Shown piece by piece: positions 53,570 through 59,861 of a DNA stretch of 64,000 nucleotides. Location: the NCBI RefSeq assembly GCF_000816145.1, contig NZ_CP007141.1, forward strand, positions 496,001 to 560,000. The letters run 5' to 3'. The notes beneath the pieces were generated by a model. The model saw nothing but the letters and a program-made list of their open reading frames with translations. It was not told the origin of the DNA and did not search any database. A program made the translations under genes and the position numbers. How positions within the stretch are numbered: position 1 is the stretch's first letter; each line of letters opens with the position of its first letter. The DNA is from Pseudothermotoga hypogea DSM 11164 = NBRC 106472 (GTDB lineage Bacteria > Thermotogota > Thermotogae > Thermotogales > DSM-5069).

Positions 53570-54529
53570 ATGGAATACAGAAAGGTTGGAAAATGGGGCA
53601 TCAAAATCAGCGAACTTTCTCTTGGAAGCTGGATCACCTTTGGAAATCAGCTCGATCTGGACTCTGCAAAGATACTGGTGAAAAAAGCCTTCGATGCCGG
53701 CATCAACTTCTTCGACACCGCTGAGGCTTATGCGGGTGGAATTGCTGAAGCCATGCTCGGTGAAATATTGAAGGATTTCAGAAGATCTGACCTTGTCGTG
53801 TCCACGAAAATCTTTTGGGGTGGAAACGGACCGAACGATCGCGGACTCTCCAGGAAGCATCTACTGGAGGGCACGTGGGCCTCACTCAAGAGATTGCAAA
53901 TGGACTACGTTGACATACTTTATTGTCACAGACCGGATCCGGAAGTGCCCATGGAAGAGATCGTCTGGACGATGGATCAGATACTGAGAAGTGGACTGGC
54001 TCTGTACTGGGGAACATCCGAATGGAGTGCCCAGCAGATAGAAGAGGCACATGAAACCGCAAAAAAGCTGAACTGTATTCCCCCCATCGTGGAACAACCT
54101 CAGTACAACTTGCTCGTGAGGGAGAGAGTGGAGAAAGAGTACGCACCCCTGTACGAAAAATATGGCATGGGCCTGACGACGTTCAGTCCCCTTGCGTCTG
54201 GACTGCTGAGCGGCAAGTATCTTGAGGGCATACCGACTGATTCACGACTCGCAAGGTACGAATTTTTGAGGAAGAGGTTCGAGGAAACTGGACTTCTCAG
54301 TGAAAAGACTTTCTCGAAACTGTTGAAACTCAGAGACCTTGCGAAAGAGTTGGATTGTACACTCGCGCAGCTTTCGATCGCGTGGATTTTGAAGAACAAG
54401 AACGTTTCGAGCGTCATACTCGGTGTTTCGAAACTGGAGCAGTTCGAAGAAAATATCAAGGCTGTAGAGGTGAAAGAGAAACTCAGTGAAGATGTGACGA
54501 GACAGATCGAAACTATCCTTGCTTCTTGA
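53570..54529 (+). CDS. aldo/keto reductase
   Basis: A 319-residue NADPH-dependent oxidoreductase of the AKR superfamily, closest in pattern to the voltage-gated K+ channel beta-subunit/YghZ group. The catalytic tetrad is visible: Asp and Tyr in FFDTAEAYAGG, Lys in STKIFWGG and His in YCHRPDP. NADP-binding residues lie in LGVSKLEQFEENI near the end. AAGGAGGT precedes the ATG. Substrate unknown. Its last 17 bases overlap hydF on the opposite strand. Confidence 0.9.
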   Translation: MEYRKVGKWGIKISELSLGSWITFGNQLDLDSAKILVKKAFDAGINFFDTAEAYAGGIAEAMLGEILKDFRRSDLVVSTKIFWGGNGPNDRGLSRKHLLEGTWASLKRLQMDYVDILYCHRPDPEVPMEEIVWTMDQILRSGLALYWGTSEWSAQQIEEAHETAKKLNCIPPIVEQPQYNLLVRERVEKEYAPLYEKYGMGLTTFSPLASGLLSGKYLEGIPTDSRLARYEFLRKRFEETGLLSEKTFSKLLKLRDLAKELDCTLAQLSIAWILKNKNVSSVILGVSKLEQFEENIKAVEVKEKLSEDVTRQIETILAS

Positions 54530-55709
54530 GGATTGGTTCTACGACTCTCTCCAGCACGCCGTGAAGGTGGGATATGAGCATGCCGTAGTTCACGACAGGA
54601 ATGTTCAGTCTCTTTGCCAGCCTCATACGTCTCATGAATGCTGTTCTGTTCAGCACACACCCACCACAATGTATCATCAGCTTGCAGTTTGAAAGTTGCT
54701 CGACCTCTGGAAATTCCTTGCCAGCGAAAAACCTGTATTCAAGCTCGAGCTTGACTTTTTCGGAGATCCAACGGGGGATCTTGACTCTACCTATGTCGTC
54801 GCACGTCGGAACGTGTGAGCACGCCTCAACGATGGCTACCGTGTCACCGTCTTTCAGATTCTTGAGGGCATCGATTCCTTCCAAAAACTGCTTCACATCG
54901 CCTTTGCTTGCGGATTCGAGAATTGAAAACGTGGTGAGTGGGATCTGCTTTGGCACGATCTTTTCAACCCTCATTATCGCCTGTGAGTCGGTCACCACCA
55001 GATCGACTTTGAAGTTCACTTTTTCCAGAGTTTGCGCAAGCTCCGTGTCCCTTGTAACCACTGCCGTCGCGGCATGATCGATCGTTTCCCTTATCGCTTC
55101 AACCTGCGGCATGATGAGTCTTCCTTTCGGTGCAGCGGTGTCTATGGGCACTACAAGCACGACTGTTCTGTATTCGCCGATGAGGTGAGCGAGCATTGGT
55201 CTGGGCTCTTCCTCCGGCAAGATATCGCAAACGGTTTTGATGAGAGTTTCTATGTTCGTTTTCGTTTTGGCAGAGACTTCGACGATCGGCACGCCAAAAT
55301 CAATGTATGCGTCTCTTAAATTGTTCTTCAGATCCAATTTGTTGATGGCGATGATGAATGGTATCTCGAGTTGCCTCAGCAGATTTACGGCGAAACGTTC
55401 ATGTTCGGTTGGCACATCGTCAACAACGAGAATGGCGGCGTCCGCGCGGTACAGGCTTCTCTTGGCCCTTTCAACTCTCTTTTCACCGAGAAAACCTTCG
55501 TCGTCCAGACCCGGTGTGTCGATGAGCGTCACCGGACCCAAAGGGTGCAACTCGAGAGTTTTGTAAACGGGATCTGTGGTTGTTCCTGGAACATCGCTGA
55601 CGATCGCCACGTCTTGACCAACGATCGCGTTGATCAAAGACGATTTCCCAACGTTCCTCCTACCAACGATCGCTATGTATTTCCTAAAGCCTGCATGAGG
55701 TACGTTCAT
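54513..55709 (-). CDS. hydF: [FeFe]-hydrogenase maturation GTPase HydF
   Basis: A 398-residue scaffold on which the H-cluster 2Fe subcluster is assembled before transfer to the hydrogenase. N-terminal GTPase domain: GRRNVGKSS at about 16-24, VPGTTTDPVYK and IDTPGLDDEG. The C-terminal cluster-binding pattern CSHVPTC plus MIHCGGC gives the CxH...HCxxC ligands. The ATG at 55709 has AGGAGG upstream; a longer frame includes that site. It follows hydE with a 26-base overlap and is last in the maturation operon. Confidence 0.94.
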   Translation of the reverse strand: MNVPHAGFRKYIAIVGRRNVGKSSLINAIVGQDVAIVSDVPGTTTDPVYKTLELHPLGPVTLIDTPGLDDEGFLGEKRVERAKRSLYRADAAILVVDDVPTEHERFAVNLLRQLEIPFIIAINKLDLKNNLRDAYIDFGVPIVEVSAKTKTNIETLIKTVCDILPEEEPRPMLAHLIGEYRTVVLVVPIDTAAPKGRLIMPQVEAIRETIDHAATAVVTRDTELAQTLEKVNFKVDLVVTDSQAIMRVEKIVPKQIPLTTFSILESASKGDVKQFLEGIDALKNLKDGDTVAIVEACSHVPTCDDIGRVKIPRWISEKVKLELEYRFFAGKEFPEVEQLSNCKLMIHCGGCVLNRTAFMRRMRLAKRLNIPVVNYGMLISHLHGVLERVVEPILKKQG

Positions 55710-56736
55710 GAGCCTTCCTCCTGTATCCAAAATCTTCGCTGACCTCGTAACCAACTGATCTGACTAAGTTTTTCGTGCACTCGCCACACGCGACATCGTT
55801 CTCGAAGATGCATATCTTGTTGGGATAGAGTGCATACTGTGCCCGGTAGGGTGAGGGAGTGAAGTTCGGCATGATCACGTTCGCACCACACTTCAGTGCG
55901 AGTTGCCTACCGAAGGGGTGGATGGTTCCCAGCGCCGTGGTGGCAGGAATGTTTGCATCCGGTAAGAACAGTCTCGTGAGTGCAATGAGTTTGAGCGTTT
56001 TCGTCAGTTCGCCCGCTTTACATTCGGCCAAAGGTGTGTCAGGATGGGGTATGAACGGACCGATACCCACCATGTCCGCATCGAGCTGGTACACAAACAA
56101 AACGTCTTTCGCTAAGGAGAAATCGTCCTGACCGGGAAGTCCCACCATGGAACCTGCGCCAGTTTCGTAGCCGAGCTGCTTGAGTTTCAGCAAGTGTGCC
56201 TTGCGGTTCTCAAAAGAATCGTTTGGATGCAGTTTTCTGTAGAGCTCTTCGTCCGCCGTCTCGTGGCGCATCAGGTAGCGATCTGCTCCAAGTTCTTTCC
56301 AGTACGCATACTCATCGAACTCTCTCTCTCCAACGGAAAGCGTTATCGCGACGTTGAATTTCTTGATCCTCGTTACCATTTCACCGATCATTTCTCTCGT
56401 GTAATAAGGATCCTCCCCGGACTGGAGCACCACGGTTTTTATACCCATCTGCGCAATAAGCCTCGCACGTTCGACGATCTCCTCGACGCTCATTCTATAA
56501 CGTTTGACGTTCTTGTTGGACGATCTGATGCCACAGTACAAACAATCGTTCCTGCAGTAATTGGAAAACTCTATGATGCCACGAAGATATACCTCTTTGC
56601 CCAAATATTTTCGTCTGACTTCGTCGGCAACTGCGAAAAGTTGCTCATTCAGCTCGTCGTTTGCCAGTATCCAAGCGATCTCTTCAAGAGTCACCTTTTC
56701 GGGGTGGTGTACGATCTTTTCGATCACTCCGTACAC
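55684..56736 (-). CDS. hydE: [FeFe]-hydrogenase maturation radical SAM protein HydE
   Basis: A 350-residue radical SAM enzyme of H-cluster synthesis. The SAM cluster ligands are Cys61, Cys65 and Cys68 in CRNDCLYC; VLQSGEDPYY and GSMVGLPGQ are family-typical. A second, non-essential cluster site is also present near the C-terminus (CIFENDVACGEC), as in the Thermotoga enzyme. The GTG start at 56736 follows AAGGTGAT and overlaps the small upstream gene by 53 bases. Confidence 0.94.
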   Translation of the reverse strand: MYGVIEKIVHHPEKVTLEEIAWILANDELNEQLFAVADEVRRKYLGKEVYLRGIIEFSNYCRNDCLYCGIRSSNKNVKRYRMSVEEIVERARLIAQMGIKTVVLQSGEDPYYTREMIGEMVTRIKKFNVAITLSVGEREFDEYAYWKELGADRYLMRHETADEELYRKLHPNDSFENRKAHLLKLKQLGYETGAGSMVGLPGQDDFSLAKDVLFVYQLDADMVGIGPFIPHPDTPLAECKAGELTKTLKLIALTRLFLPDANIPATTALGTIHPFGRQLALKCGANVIMPNFTPSPYRAQYALYPNKICIFENDVACGECTKNLVRSVGYEVSEDFGYRRKAHERTSCRL

Positions 56737-56965
56737 ACTCGATCACCTTCTCACACATGTCTTTGAGTTGATCGCTCATTTCGTCTGCCTGAACGAACAC
56801 GACGTACTTTTCATCTTCAAACCCCACCATCGGTGGAAGAAACCTTTCCTCTCCTGCTTTCAGGCCTGGAATGTGAGAGATCCTTTTTCCAATCTTCTCA
56901 CACACCCAGACTTTGCACCCGAAACGTTCCGCGATCTTCTCCAGAAGTTTTTCACAGTCTGACAT
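56684..56965 (-). CDS. TM1268-like small protein of the hydrogenase-maturation operon
   Basis: A 93-residue protein between hydG and hydE. It has a Cys-containing N-terminus (SDCEKLLEKIAERFGCKVWV), a beta-rich middle with PPMVGFEDEKYVVFVQ, and a C-terminal helix with another Cys pair (CEKVIECVR). I recall a hypothetical gene (TM1268) in the same place in T. maritima; no function is known to me. GGAG stands 6 bases before the ATG at 56965. It overlaps hydG by 14 and hydE by 53 bases. Confidence 0.7.
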   Translation of the reverse strand: MSDCEKLLEKIAERFGCKVWVCEKIGKRISHIPGLKAGEERFLPPMVGFEDEKYVVFVQADEMSDQLKDMCEKVIECVRSDRKDRTPPRKGDS

Positions 56966-58376
56966 CCCTTTCTCCCGCCTCCAGTTTTTGCAAAAGCTTT
57001 TCCACAACCTTTCTTCTTTCCTCCGGCATCTTCTTGAGTTCGCTTTCGATGAGCCTTTCCCCTATCCTTTTTGTCTCCTCCGAAGCGTAATCGATCAGAT
57101 ACTCTTTGAACGTCAACAAGGCATTCGGTGTGCAGAACTCCTTCACGAAACCTGGTATCGCGAACTCCATGAAGTGTTGACCCGTTCTGCCGGCCCTGTA
57201 ACACGCTGTACAGAAGGACGGTATGTAACCGTTTTGAGCGAGCTCTCTCATCACCTCGTCCAGAGATCTGGTGTCACCCAAGATGAACTGGCTCTTTTTG
57301 ATCGTTTCTGGATCCTGATTCGAATAGGAACCAACACCTATGCTCGAACCGGCATCTATCTGAGATACCCCGAGCCTCAGACCTTCTCGTCTTATGTCAG
57401 GGCTTTCTCTGGCGGTCAGAATCATGCCGGTGTAGGGAACGGACAGCCTTATGATCGCTATCAAACGTTTGAATTCTTCATCGCTCACGGGTTTGGGTGG
57501 CCTCTGGGCGAGAGGTGTGTTCACTGCTGGCTCGATCCTCGGAAAGGAGATGGTGTGTGGTCCTACGCCGAACCTTTCTTCTAAATGTTTTGTGTGGTAC
57601 ATGAGCCCCATCACTTCGAATTTCCAATCGTAGAGTCCGAAAAGAGCACCTATACCCACATCGTCTATGCCGGCAAGCATGGCTCTGTCCAGACCAAAGA
57701 GCCTGTACATATAGGAAGCCTTCGGACCTTTCAGATGGTACTTCTTGTAGGTGGGCAGATGATAAGTCTCTTGGAAGATCTGGAAGGTGCCTATACCCAC
57801 CTGCTTTATGATCCTGTAACCTTCAATCGTCTGAGGTGCGGCGTTCACGTTCACACGCCTTATCTCACCATGTCCATTCTTGTAACTGTATATCTTCTCG
57901 ATCGTCTTGGCTATGAAGGTCGGTGAATACATGGGATGTTCTCCAAAGACAACGATCAGCCTCTTGTGGCCCTTTGAGGTGAGCGCGTGAAGTTCTGCTT
58001 CGAGCTCTTCTTCGCTCAATGTCTTTCTGATCACCTGCGTGTTCTCGGCCCTGAAACCGCAGTACGAACAGTTGTTGATGCACTGATTCCCAATGTAAAG
58101 CGGTGCGAAGAGAACGATCCTGTTGCCGTAGATCTCCTCTTTCAACTTTCTCGCCGCTTGAAATATGAGTTCGATCTGCTCTGGCTTTTCTGCGTTCAAG
58201 AGCGTGGCTGTCTCTTTGGGTGTGAGTCGTTCCTTTTGCAACGATTTCTCAACGATTTCTCGTATCAGTTCTGTGTCAGGATTCTTCGTCTCATTCAACA
58301 GTTGTTCTATCTCGCCATGCGGGATGAAACTCTCTCGGTCCTCGATACTTTCGATCCTCCTCAGTAACGTCAACAC
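56952..58376 (-). CDS. hydG: [FeFe]-hydrogenase maturation radical SAM protein HydG
   Basis: A 474-residue enzyme that cleaves tyrosine to supply CO and CN- ligands of the H-cluster. The SAM cluster is bound by Cys99, Cys103 and Cys106 (CINNCSYC). The C-terminal auxiliary cluster site, CTACYRAGRTGQ with a third Cys 23 residues on (FVKEFC), distinguishes it from the thiamine enzyme ThiH. GAGGTGAGACT precedes the GTG start. It follows the TM1266-like regulator gene by 9 bases. Confidence 0.95.
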   Translation of the reverse strand: MLTLLRRIESIEDRESFIPHGEIEQLLNETKNPDTELIREIVEKSLQKERLTPKETATLLNAEKPEQIELIFQAARKLKEEIYGNRIVLFAPLYIGNQCINNCSYCGFRAENTQVIRKTLSEEELEAELHALTSKGHKRLIVVFGEHPMYSPTFIAKTIEKIYSYKNGHGEIRRVNVNAAPQTIEGYRIIKQVGIGTFQIFQETYHLPTYKKYHLKGPKASYMYRLFGLDRAMLAGIDDVGIGALFGLYDWKFEVMGLMYHTKHLEERFGVGPHTISFPRIEPAVNTPLAQRPPKPVSDEEFKRLIAIIRLSVPYTGMILTARESPDIRREGLRLGVSQIDAGSSIGVGSYSNQDPETIKKSQFILGDTRSLDEVMRELAQNGYIPSFCTACYRAGRTGQHFMEFAIPGFVKEFCTPNALLTFKEYLIDYASEETKRIGERLIESELKKMPEERRKVVEKLLQKLEAGERDVRL

Positions 58377-58385
58377 AGTCTCACC

Positions 58386-58628
58386 TCACTTCAAAGGCAT
58401 CGTCTTCACCTTGACACTCTTCACCTGGCCGAGTTTCCCGCTCAGGCTTCCGATCACATCGTTACTGGTTTTCACGATCAAGAGTATGATCGCCATGTTC
58501 TCGTCAGGTACGGGATAGCCGATTCTGAGTTTTATCACGTCCGCAAAATCGTGCAGAAGCTCGTTCACCTGTTTGTACGCACTCTGCCGGTCCTCCACGA
58601 TGATGTTCACGATGTAGAACCTCTCCAA
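58386..58628 (-). CDS. TM1266-type iron-only hydrogenase system regulator
   Basis: An 80-residue protein with an ACT-like ferredoxin fold: RFYIVNIIVEDRQSAYKQVN, IKLRIGYPVPDENMAIILLI and a final strand VKSVKVKTMPLK. The family is associated with [FeFe]-hydrogenase maturation genes and called a putative regulator; its ligand is unknown. The start is TTG 58628. Its ribosome-binding site GAGGAAGGGGG is the 3' arm of an 11-bp hairpin, so translation of this first gene is the likely point of control. Confidence 0.85.
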   Translation of the reverse strand: MERFYIVNIIVEDRQSAYKQVNELLHDFADVIKLRIGYPVPDENMAIILLIVKTSNDVIGSLSGKLGQVKSVKVKTMPLK

Positions 58629-58636
58629 AATGAAAA

Positions 58637-58696
58637 CCCCCTTCCTCTCGCCGAGGAAGGGGGCAAATTGGATGCTGCTTCACCTCCCTTCCTCGG
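58637..58696 (-). promoter_or_regulatory. three-segment attenuator leader of the hydrogenase-maturation operon
   Basis: In transcript order: segment 1 CCGAGGAAGGG (58686-58696), segment 2 CCCCCTTCCTC(GG) (58651-58663), segment 3 GAGGAAGGGGG (58637-58647). Segments 1 and 2 pair over 11 bp (58686-58696 with 58651-58661); segments 2 and 3 pair over 11 bp with a 5-base loop. The 2:3 hairpin is followed by TTTTCATTTTG and contains the ribosome-binding site. The two foldings exclude each other, the layout of an attenuator or switch. Confidence 0.7.
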
Positions 58697-58734
58697 TGTC
58701 AGATTCCTCCTCCACCTCAGAAGGTTCCAAGTGA

Positions 58735-58763
58735 ATTATATCACATTCCTCGGTGCGGGTCAA
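58735..58763 (-). promoter_or_regulatory. consensus promoter of the hydrogenase-maturation operon
   Basis: TTGACC (58758-58763), exactly 17 bases, TATAAT (58735-58740). One of the best promoters in the window. The implied leader is about 100 bases. Confidence 0.85.
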
Positions 58764-58868: not shown

Positions 58869-59861
58869 ATGACCCGATCCTGGCAGGAATGGCTGGTCAG
58901 ACAGATCTCGCTTGCCGGTGATTTCGACGAGAGGATTCTCAACGCGTTTCTTAAAGTACCCAGAGAGGTCTTCAGCGAGTTTCACTACGATCTGGACGTT
59001 GTTTACAGCGACAACGTGATCGTAACGGCGAGGGACGGAAACAGTTACTCTACCTCGAGTCAGCCTTCGCTCATGGCCCTTTTCATGAGCGTGGTCGGCT
59101 TGAGAGAGGGCATGAAGGTTTTGGAGATCGGCTCGGGTACAGGCTACAACGCCTGCGTCATGGCCCATGTCGTCGGAGAGGATGGTCTCGTCGTCGGAAT
59201 CGAATCCAACCAAAGGTTCTTCAAGAGGAGCGTTGAGGTGGCTTCGAAGTTGGGCATTGAAAACGTTATCTTCGTGAACGGCGACGGATTCTATGGCTAT
59301 GAAAAACTTTCACCGTACGATGCGATAGTGATCACCGTGGCCGTGGACAAGGTCTCACGGCATTGGGTAGATCAGCTGAAAATAGGAGGAAGAGTTGTTG
59401 GTCCCATCGATGTTTACACGATCGATAGACAACCGGCATTCGTGTTCGAAAAGACAAGCGACAGCATCGTGGCAAAACACCTTGTGGAGACCAAGTTCAT
59501 AAAGGCTGGCGGATTACTTGGAAACCTCAACGAAACCAATCTCGAGAGACTGTCGAAAATAGAGAAGAGGTTCTCAACGCCGGTAGAGTTCTTGAGCATT
59601 CCAGTTGGCAGCTACGAAGCCGTTGGAGTGTTTCACCTGGCCAGCTGGTCACTGTGTGAGAAAAGTGGCTGGATTTACTTTGTCGAAGATGAAGGTTTTG
59701 CACGTTGGAAAGGTGGCTGGGAAGTGTTTGGAAAAATGGAACTGATCAAACGCATCGCTGAAGAATGGGCGAAGACTGGATTCACTCCTATGATGCTTTT
59801 GAGGTTTGGCTACGACCACAGGATGAATTTCGAAAGATTGGAAAGGTGGGATGAAACATGA
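58869..59861 (+). CDS. pcm: protein-L-isoaspartate O-methyltransferase
   Basis: A 330-residue repair enzyme that methylates isoaspartyl residues so that they can revert to aspartate. SAM-binding motif I is VLEIGSGTGYNACVMAHVVG, preceded by the substrate motif SSQPSLMA. The C-terminal 120 residues are an extension beyond the usual 210-residue core, as in the Thermotoga enzyme (about 317 residues). GAGAGGG stands 6 bases before the ATG. Its stop overlaps the ATG of the alpha-2-macroglobulin gene. Confidence 0.92.
   Translation: MTRSWQEWLVRQISLAGDFDERILNAFLKVPREVFSEFHYDLDVVYSDNVIVTARDGNSYSTSSQPSLMALFMSVVGLREGMKVLEIGSGTGYNACVMAHVVGEDGLVVGIESNQRFFKRSVEVASKLGIENVIFVNGDGFYGYEKLSPYDAIVITVAVDKVSRHWVDQLKIGGRVVGPIDVYTIDRQPAFVFEKTSDSIVAKHLVETKFIKAGGLLGNLNETNLERLSKIEKRFSTPVEFLSIPVGSYEAVGVFHLASWSLCEKSGWIYFVEDEGFARWKGGWEVFGKMELIKRIAEEWAKTGFTPMMLLRFGYDHRMNFERLERWDET

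Follow-up and report, generated by a model that had tools for sequence, protein, structure and literature searches.

A symmetric leader hairpin linked to TM1266 and its possible role in controlling [FeFe]-hydrogenase maturation genes

We analyzed a DNA stretch of 64,000 nucleotides (henceforth the window), from a Pseudothermotoga-related member of the Thermotogaceae, in which the [FeFe]-hydrogenase maturation operon is preceded by a leader built around a symmetric hairpin (58687-58724, minus strand). This hairpin, which the first-pass annotation had not noticed, shows the strongest conservation in the leader. The element is real, conserved and undescribed in the libraries and papers that we searched. 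What is new is the symmetric sensor hairpin itself, a regulon that extends over several phyla and the tie to the TM1266 protein family. Comparative sequence data make it nearly certain that the leader is a real cis-regulatory RNA, and we propose that it would act as an OFF-type transcription attenuator governing synthesis of the maturation machinery, with the hairpin as the site of a trans-acting regulator.

The operon is encoded on the minus strand in the order TM1266-HydG-ORF107-HydE-HydF, and NCBIfam models matched TM1266, HydG, HydE and HydF above their cut-offs. The first gene is the TM1266-family gene (58386-58628, TTG start at 58628; TIGR03959, PF21699), whose product is the proposed RNA-binding partner of the leader. 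It is followed by HydG (56952-58376; TIGR03955), a conserved open reading frame of 107 amino acids (56684-57007), HydE (55684-56736; TIGR03956) and HydF (54513-55754; TIGR03918). ORF107 overlaps the ends of HydG and HydE and occurs at the same place in many relatives with 26-90% identity. It matched no Pfam or NCBIfam family and is possibly an unrecognized maturation-operon protein. On the plus strand, a divergent gene resembling protein-L-isoaspartate methyltransferase, with an extra C-terminal part (58869-59861), has its upstream region in common with the hyd operon.

The leader is about 100 nt long and lies upstream of TM1266. A promoter of the form TTGACC-17-TATAAT had been read there, and the sequence contains it: the -35 hexamer TTGACC (58758-58763) and the -10 hexamer TATAAT (58735-58740) are separated by a 17-nt spacer. 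The -10 assignment draws on the sequence and on relatives; TGTGA lies just 5' of the hexamer, and most near relatives retain TGTGATATAATT at this region. Fold and alignment place the sensor hairpin, CCUUCU-GA-GGUG-GA-GGA-GGAA-UCU-GA-CACC-GA-GGAAGG, at 58687-58724. Segment 1 (CCGAGGAAGGG, 58686-58696) is both the 3' strand of this hairpin and the 5' strand of an antiterminator. Segment 2 (CCCCCTTCCTCGG, 58651-58663) is the 5' arm of the terminator and, with positions 58651-58661, the 3' strand of the antiterminator, whereas segment 3 (GAGGAAGGGGG, 58637-58647) pairs with segment 2. The intrinsic terminator hairpin (58637-58663) has 11-12 bp and is followed by TTTTCATTTT; its 3' arm, AGGAAGGGGG, likely doubles as the TM1266 ribosome-binding site.

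The first-pass annotation had interpreted this region as an attenuator-type switch ahead of the HydG/E/F maturation operon, in which segment 2 pairs with either segment 1 or segment 3. Both pairings are indeed perfect across 11 bp, and an 11-bp pairing of the segment-1 and segment-2 regions was reached in none of 2000 dinucleotide shuffles. The leader fold had a z-score of -5.6 relative to shuffled sequences, with 0 of 200 shuffles as stable. Both features, the structure and the pairing of segments 1 and 2, are conserved among relatives. The complementarity of the two segments is conserved and covarying across the Thermotogota, so the attenuator reading passes the check that the first-pass annotation had set for it, and the mutually exclusive terminator and antiterminator of the leader are retained there as co-varying alternatives.

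In the minimum-energy fold, the hairpin contains two tandem G.A internal loops and has near-perfect two-fold symmetry. It was the best-conserved segment of the leader already among the first ten relatives. We built a covariance model from 11 sequences and refined it to 72 (R2) and then 93 sequences (R3). In the 93-sequence alignment, each strand of the hairpin reads YCUGA-N4-RAGGR, a repeat that suits a dyad-symmetric protein. In the internal loops, GA on one side usually faces GA or AA on the other, and the two-fold symmetry of the strands extends to the variable positions. The GGA triplets pair with UCU, and these pairs co-vary, with A-U or G-C at the third position. The 4-bp center shows compensatory variation (GGUG/CACC, GAUG/CAUC and others) and tolerates many sequences, including GGUG, GAUG, GAUC and GGCU. 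Among 72 leaders, 96.9% of the pair cells were standard, 8 of the 13 pairs were doubly changed and 111 double-change cells were counted, compared with 28 ± 10 in shuffles (0 of 500); among 93 leaders, 94.6% were paired and 170 double-change cells compared with 43 ± 17 in shuffles and at most 58 in slid controls, although all these counts lean towards the model because alignments A4 and A5 were fitted to its structure. The un-fitted MAFFT alignment A2 pointed in the same direction with fewer sequences.

We compared the hairpin with known RNA elements. A k-turn, suggested by the tandem G.A pairs, was ruled out by eye as the 3-nt bulge is absent. A cmscan search of the window leader and 12 relatives against Rfam 15 at permissive E-values gave nothing above gathering thresholds and no T-box match. 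The best chance matches had E-values of 0.39 and 0.053, and L10_leader scored 34.8 against a gathering threshold of 44 in a single relative. The leader had no match among plasmid sequences. Neither this leader RNA nor any control of HydE/F/G synthesis was described in the literature searched; the leader comparison covered PMC3636130, PMC8632094, PMC11109978 and PMC2864571.

The R2 model detected 80 copies of the hairpin (E ≤ 1.9e-4) in 64 of 103 Thermotogota genomes, the next match having an E-value of 0.009. Downstream genes, assigned by translated search and coordinates, were TM1266 for 52 copies, HydF for 14, HydG for 8, HydE for 1, the [FeFe] hydrogenase for 3 and others for 2. The 14 HydF-linked copies are unlinked second copies; in one genus (G090-G096), the hairpin precedes TM1266 and also HydF. 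The three hydrogenase-linked copies are followed by the [FeFe] structural gene (Fe_hyd_lg_C, E 3e-98) and then by TM1266 and HydG. One of the two "other" copies, L096, lies directly 3' of a hydrogenase gene. The second, L093 (G021:C38:17879-17920), is the counterpart of the HydF leader of a sister species, on a contig that ends without HydF; it is followed by what resembles an IS200/IS605-type end.

Beyond the Thermotogota, at least two other lineages and Coprothermobacter carry the hairpin. It lies upstream of TM1266 in Coprothermobacter, G149 and G229, at 7 of 11 TM1266 loci in the class of G222 and, by R2, at about 19 of the 28 TM1266 loci examined in the class of G381, where most of the remaining loci have it by eye. 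Divergent hairpins, of which CCGAUCGCAAGG..CCCGAGCGAGAGGG and CCUGCGGUGAGGA..UCUGAAACCAAGGG are examples, precede TM1266 or HydG in additional phyla (L159, L162, L163, L166, L167, L178, L179, L199 and L263) and probably represent this element with a different core sequence. A relaxed regular-expression descriptor also picks divergent copies in G119, G266, G362 and G167 and is too loose to serve as proof. Weak R1 matches at L099, L100, L101, L112, L113 and L115-L118 were discarded, since they lie in unrelated sequence or inside other genes and R2 scores them weakly or not at all.

The distribution of the hairpin follows that of TM1266. In the Thermotogota, TM1266 scored above the family cut-off in 67 genomes, 64 of which have the hairpin. 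Conversely, all 64 hairpin-bearing genomes encode TM1266, and there was no confident match in a genome without it. TM1266 is present and the hairpin was not found in G014 and G032. In one genus, five HydG-positive genomes (G057-G061) lack both TM1266 and the hairpin, and their congener G062 has both; a single loss event may have removed leader and gene together. We searched 77 further HydG-positive genomes, mostly from other phyla, and obtained five whole-genome R3 matches below 0.01, all just upstream of TM1266 (Fisher p = 0.0026 for the association), although the numbers are low and the sampling is uneven. In 53 genomes lacking TM1266, R3 gave no match upstream of HydG up to E = 1, and at nine TM1266-positive loci outside the training set it matched at the expected place and strand. 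Part of the co-occurrence is phylogenetic. It is not just adjacency, as in G018-G021, G029-G031 and G101 the hairpin precedes HydG or HydF and TM1266 is elsewhere in the genome; G245 and G382, from other lineages, are weaker cases of the same separation. For 52 of the 80 Thermotogota copies, the gene directly behind the hairpin is that of the candidate binder itself.

The antiterminator co-evolves with each leader, as judged from pairing energies in sequence. In 48 distinct terminator-bearing leaders, the 3' strand of the hairpin pairs with the 5' arm of its own terminator at a mean of -27.3 kcal/mol, compared with -19.9 kcal/mol when terminators are swapped, and none of 10,000 permutations reached the own-pair mean. 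Minimum-energy folds of growing window transcripts, counted from 58730, gave the order of events. Up to a length of about 72 nt the transcript folds into the sensor hairpin, and between about 78 and 88 nt the antiterminator has the lowest energy; once the 3' arm of the terminator is complete, the combination of hairpin and terminator is favored, at 37 °C as well as at 65 °C. Because the antiterminator is best only in this short interval, an occupant of the hairpin during it would decide for termination.

Not all copies use a terminator in this way. Several groups have the ribosome-binding site GGAGG within the 3' strand of the hairpin, a few bases before the start of TM1266 or HydF, and this platform also occurs in other lineages. 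In L088, L090, L092 and L094, the GGAGG in the hairpin drives a short leader ORF, which extends into a terminator upstream of HydG. Together with L096, these belong to one Thermotogota group and suggest translation-coupled antitermination. The leader ORFs of the five comprise 13-37 codons and run into an intrinsic terminator, that of L096 lying 3' of the hydrogenase gene rather than before HydG. Since the hairpin sequesters segment 1 and so lets the terminator form, its formed state would be OFF in the window, and sequence comparison suggests very strongly that the same polarity applies to every platform type.

Several properties make TM1266 the best candidate for the occupant: the RNA site is symmetric, the protein is a symmetric sensor without another known target, and the two co-occur strictly. 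TM1266 has been labeled a putative regulator, and its crystal structure 2nzc has been available since 2006; we know of no target for it. Our AlphaFold model (mean pLDDT 96) has the NikR C-terminal/ACT-like fold, with Foldseek TM-scores of 0.97 to 2nzc and about 0.85 to NikR, and contains no DNA-binding domain. R35 and K75 are invariant in the family, and residue 65 is basic (K/R) in nearly all members. From these data, we consider it somewhat more probable than its opposite that TM1266 binds the hairpin. A TM1266 paralogue (NF052672/CPF_0552-like), likewise a small ACT-like protein but with weak similarity to TM1266 and a score below the cut-off, is encoded at G000:C1:851938-852156 (L328) and at similar places in about 50 genomes. 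Six of its loci were checked, and the hairpin was absent nearby; this protein is possibly another regulator. Two TM1266-like genes per genome were seen in G429 (L281) and G229:C20, in tandem in G229.

In the mechanism that we propose, a hairpin that is occupied and stable would lock segment 1, segments 2 and 3 would form the terminator, and transcription would stop ahead of TM1266-HydG-HydE-HydF. With the hairpin left free, segments 1 and 2 would pair as the polymerase passes, no terminator would form and the operon would be read. TM1266 would be the most likely occupant. By binding RNA it would repress its own operon and the rest of the hyd regulon, with a ligand tuning the effect; conceivable signals are an H-cluster precursor, iron or the redox state. 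The conserved hairpin, the exclusivity of terminator and antiterminator, the common polarity, the association with hyd genes and the co-occurrence with TM1266 form the sequence basis of this attenuator model, with TM1266 as the hairpin-bound repressor, and on this basis we hold it to be reasonably likely. Of the triggers offered by the first-pass annotation, the TM1266-type protein fits the comparative evidence.

TM1266 may also be merely one of the regulated genes. A true riboswitch, in which a small molecule or metal ion (such as iron, SAM, an H-cluster precursor or a tyrosine-derived product) is the direct ligand of the hairpin and TM1266 is only a controlled gene, would leave the downstream switch unchanged. 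The leader does combine a conserved, co-varying sensor domain with an expression platform, its conservation is strong around the tandem G.A loops, and the use of both terminator and ribosome-binding-site platforms on a one-pathway regulon is typical of riboswitches. However, the element is nothing but a very small helix of strict two-fold symmetry, its 4-bp core accepts many sequences, and HydG-positive genomes without TM1266 give no match, so that we regard a riboswitch as rather unlikely. Recognition by another RNA-binding protein, for example CsrA or a general RNA chaperone, appears highly improbable. CsrA occurs in Thermotogae; its homodimer recognizes two GGA motifs, and with GGR/GGA on each strand the symmetry of the hairpin would fit a dimer. 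CsrA requires these motifs in loops, whereas the GGA triplets of the hairpin are paired with UCU and co-vary; the regulon is limited to hyd genes, and the co-occurrence with TM1266 would be left unexplained.

Control by ribosome position on a leader peptide, whose translation would pick the helix, was another trigger proposed before. The 16-codon TTG frame (LEPSEVEEESDTEEGR, 58680-58730, minus strand) exists as read and stops just past segment 1, and a different ORF runs into the terminator in four to five distant relatives. In nearly all relatives, however, the frame is missing or ends after 1-10 codons, and L008 lacks a start codon altogether. Even within the genus, near relatives show frames of 3, 4 or 16 codons that encode other residues, and what is conserved is the pairing and the G.A loops and no reading frame. 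We consequently judge this ORF to lie outside the system and give leader-peptide control next to no credence. Constitutive read-through of an ordinary terminator in an unregulated leader would agree with a literature search that gave no direct expression data on this leader. It is very hard to reconcile with independent copies before unlinked HydF, HydG, HydE and hydrogenase genes, with several platform types and with a co-evolving antiterminator, and we consider it most unlikely.

Expression data from a related organism bear on the attenuator model with TM1266. In RNA-seq of T. neapolitana under CO2, TM1266 was up 5.98-fold, HydG 6.39-fold and HydE 7.52-fold, with HydF at only 1.28-fold (PMC7039931), which indicates that an operon behind such a leader is strongly regulated. 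The weak response of HydF speaks against the model and implies that promoter or leader-specific differences also matter. As Thermotoga-type HydF has its own copy of the hairpin, either a promoter signal is at work there or the two leaders differ in their response.

The leader resembles several known systems in parts. As in OFF riboswitches such as those for guanine and SAM-I, a sensor hairpin sequesters the antiterminator strand and its stabilization leads to termination, and relatives of the window leader include variants that sequester the ribosome-binding site; unlike them, the hyd leader has no Rfam match, consists of a simple symmetric helix with two tandem G.A loops and is tied to a protein, TM1266. 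Like PyrR-type and L10 or L20 leaders, it precedes an operon whose first gene encodes the likely binder, and separate copies control further operons; a protein-stabilized hairpin that serves as anti-antiterminator follows the logic of PyrR, with the binding in the hyd case proposed from sequence. It differs from PyrR and ribosomal-protein leaders in the unrelated protein, the RNA consensus and the pathway, H-cluster assembly. TM1266 has the fold of the C-terminal sensing domain of NikR and lacks its ribbon-helix-helix DNA-binding domain, and its proposed target is RNA. Target leaders of CsrA/RsmE likewise offer a dimer-type symmetric site with two GGA motifs, but in the hyd hairpin GGA is paired and co-varying and the regulon is confined to hyd genes.

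[FeFe] hydrogenases rank with the fastest enzymatic producers of hydrogen, and the assembly pathway of HydE, HydF and HydG is intensively studied. A hairpin found only with TM1266 gives this protein a concrete, testable target. Over 79 residues, the TM1266 of G090 and that of G092 do not differ from the T. maritima protein in crystal structure 2nzc, so two copies of the hairpin sit in genomes whose TM1266 has the sequence of that structure. There is an even chance, in our estimation, that TM1266-type proteins represent a new class of RNA-binding sensors, in which a NikR-sensor/ACT fold would bind a symmetric tandem-G.A hairpin and feed the state of H-cluster assembly back on gene expression in several phyla. 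The hairpin offers the field a hyd regulon and a candidate for the sensing of H-cluster assembly.
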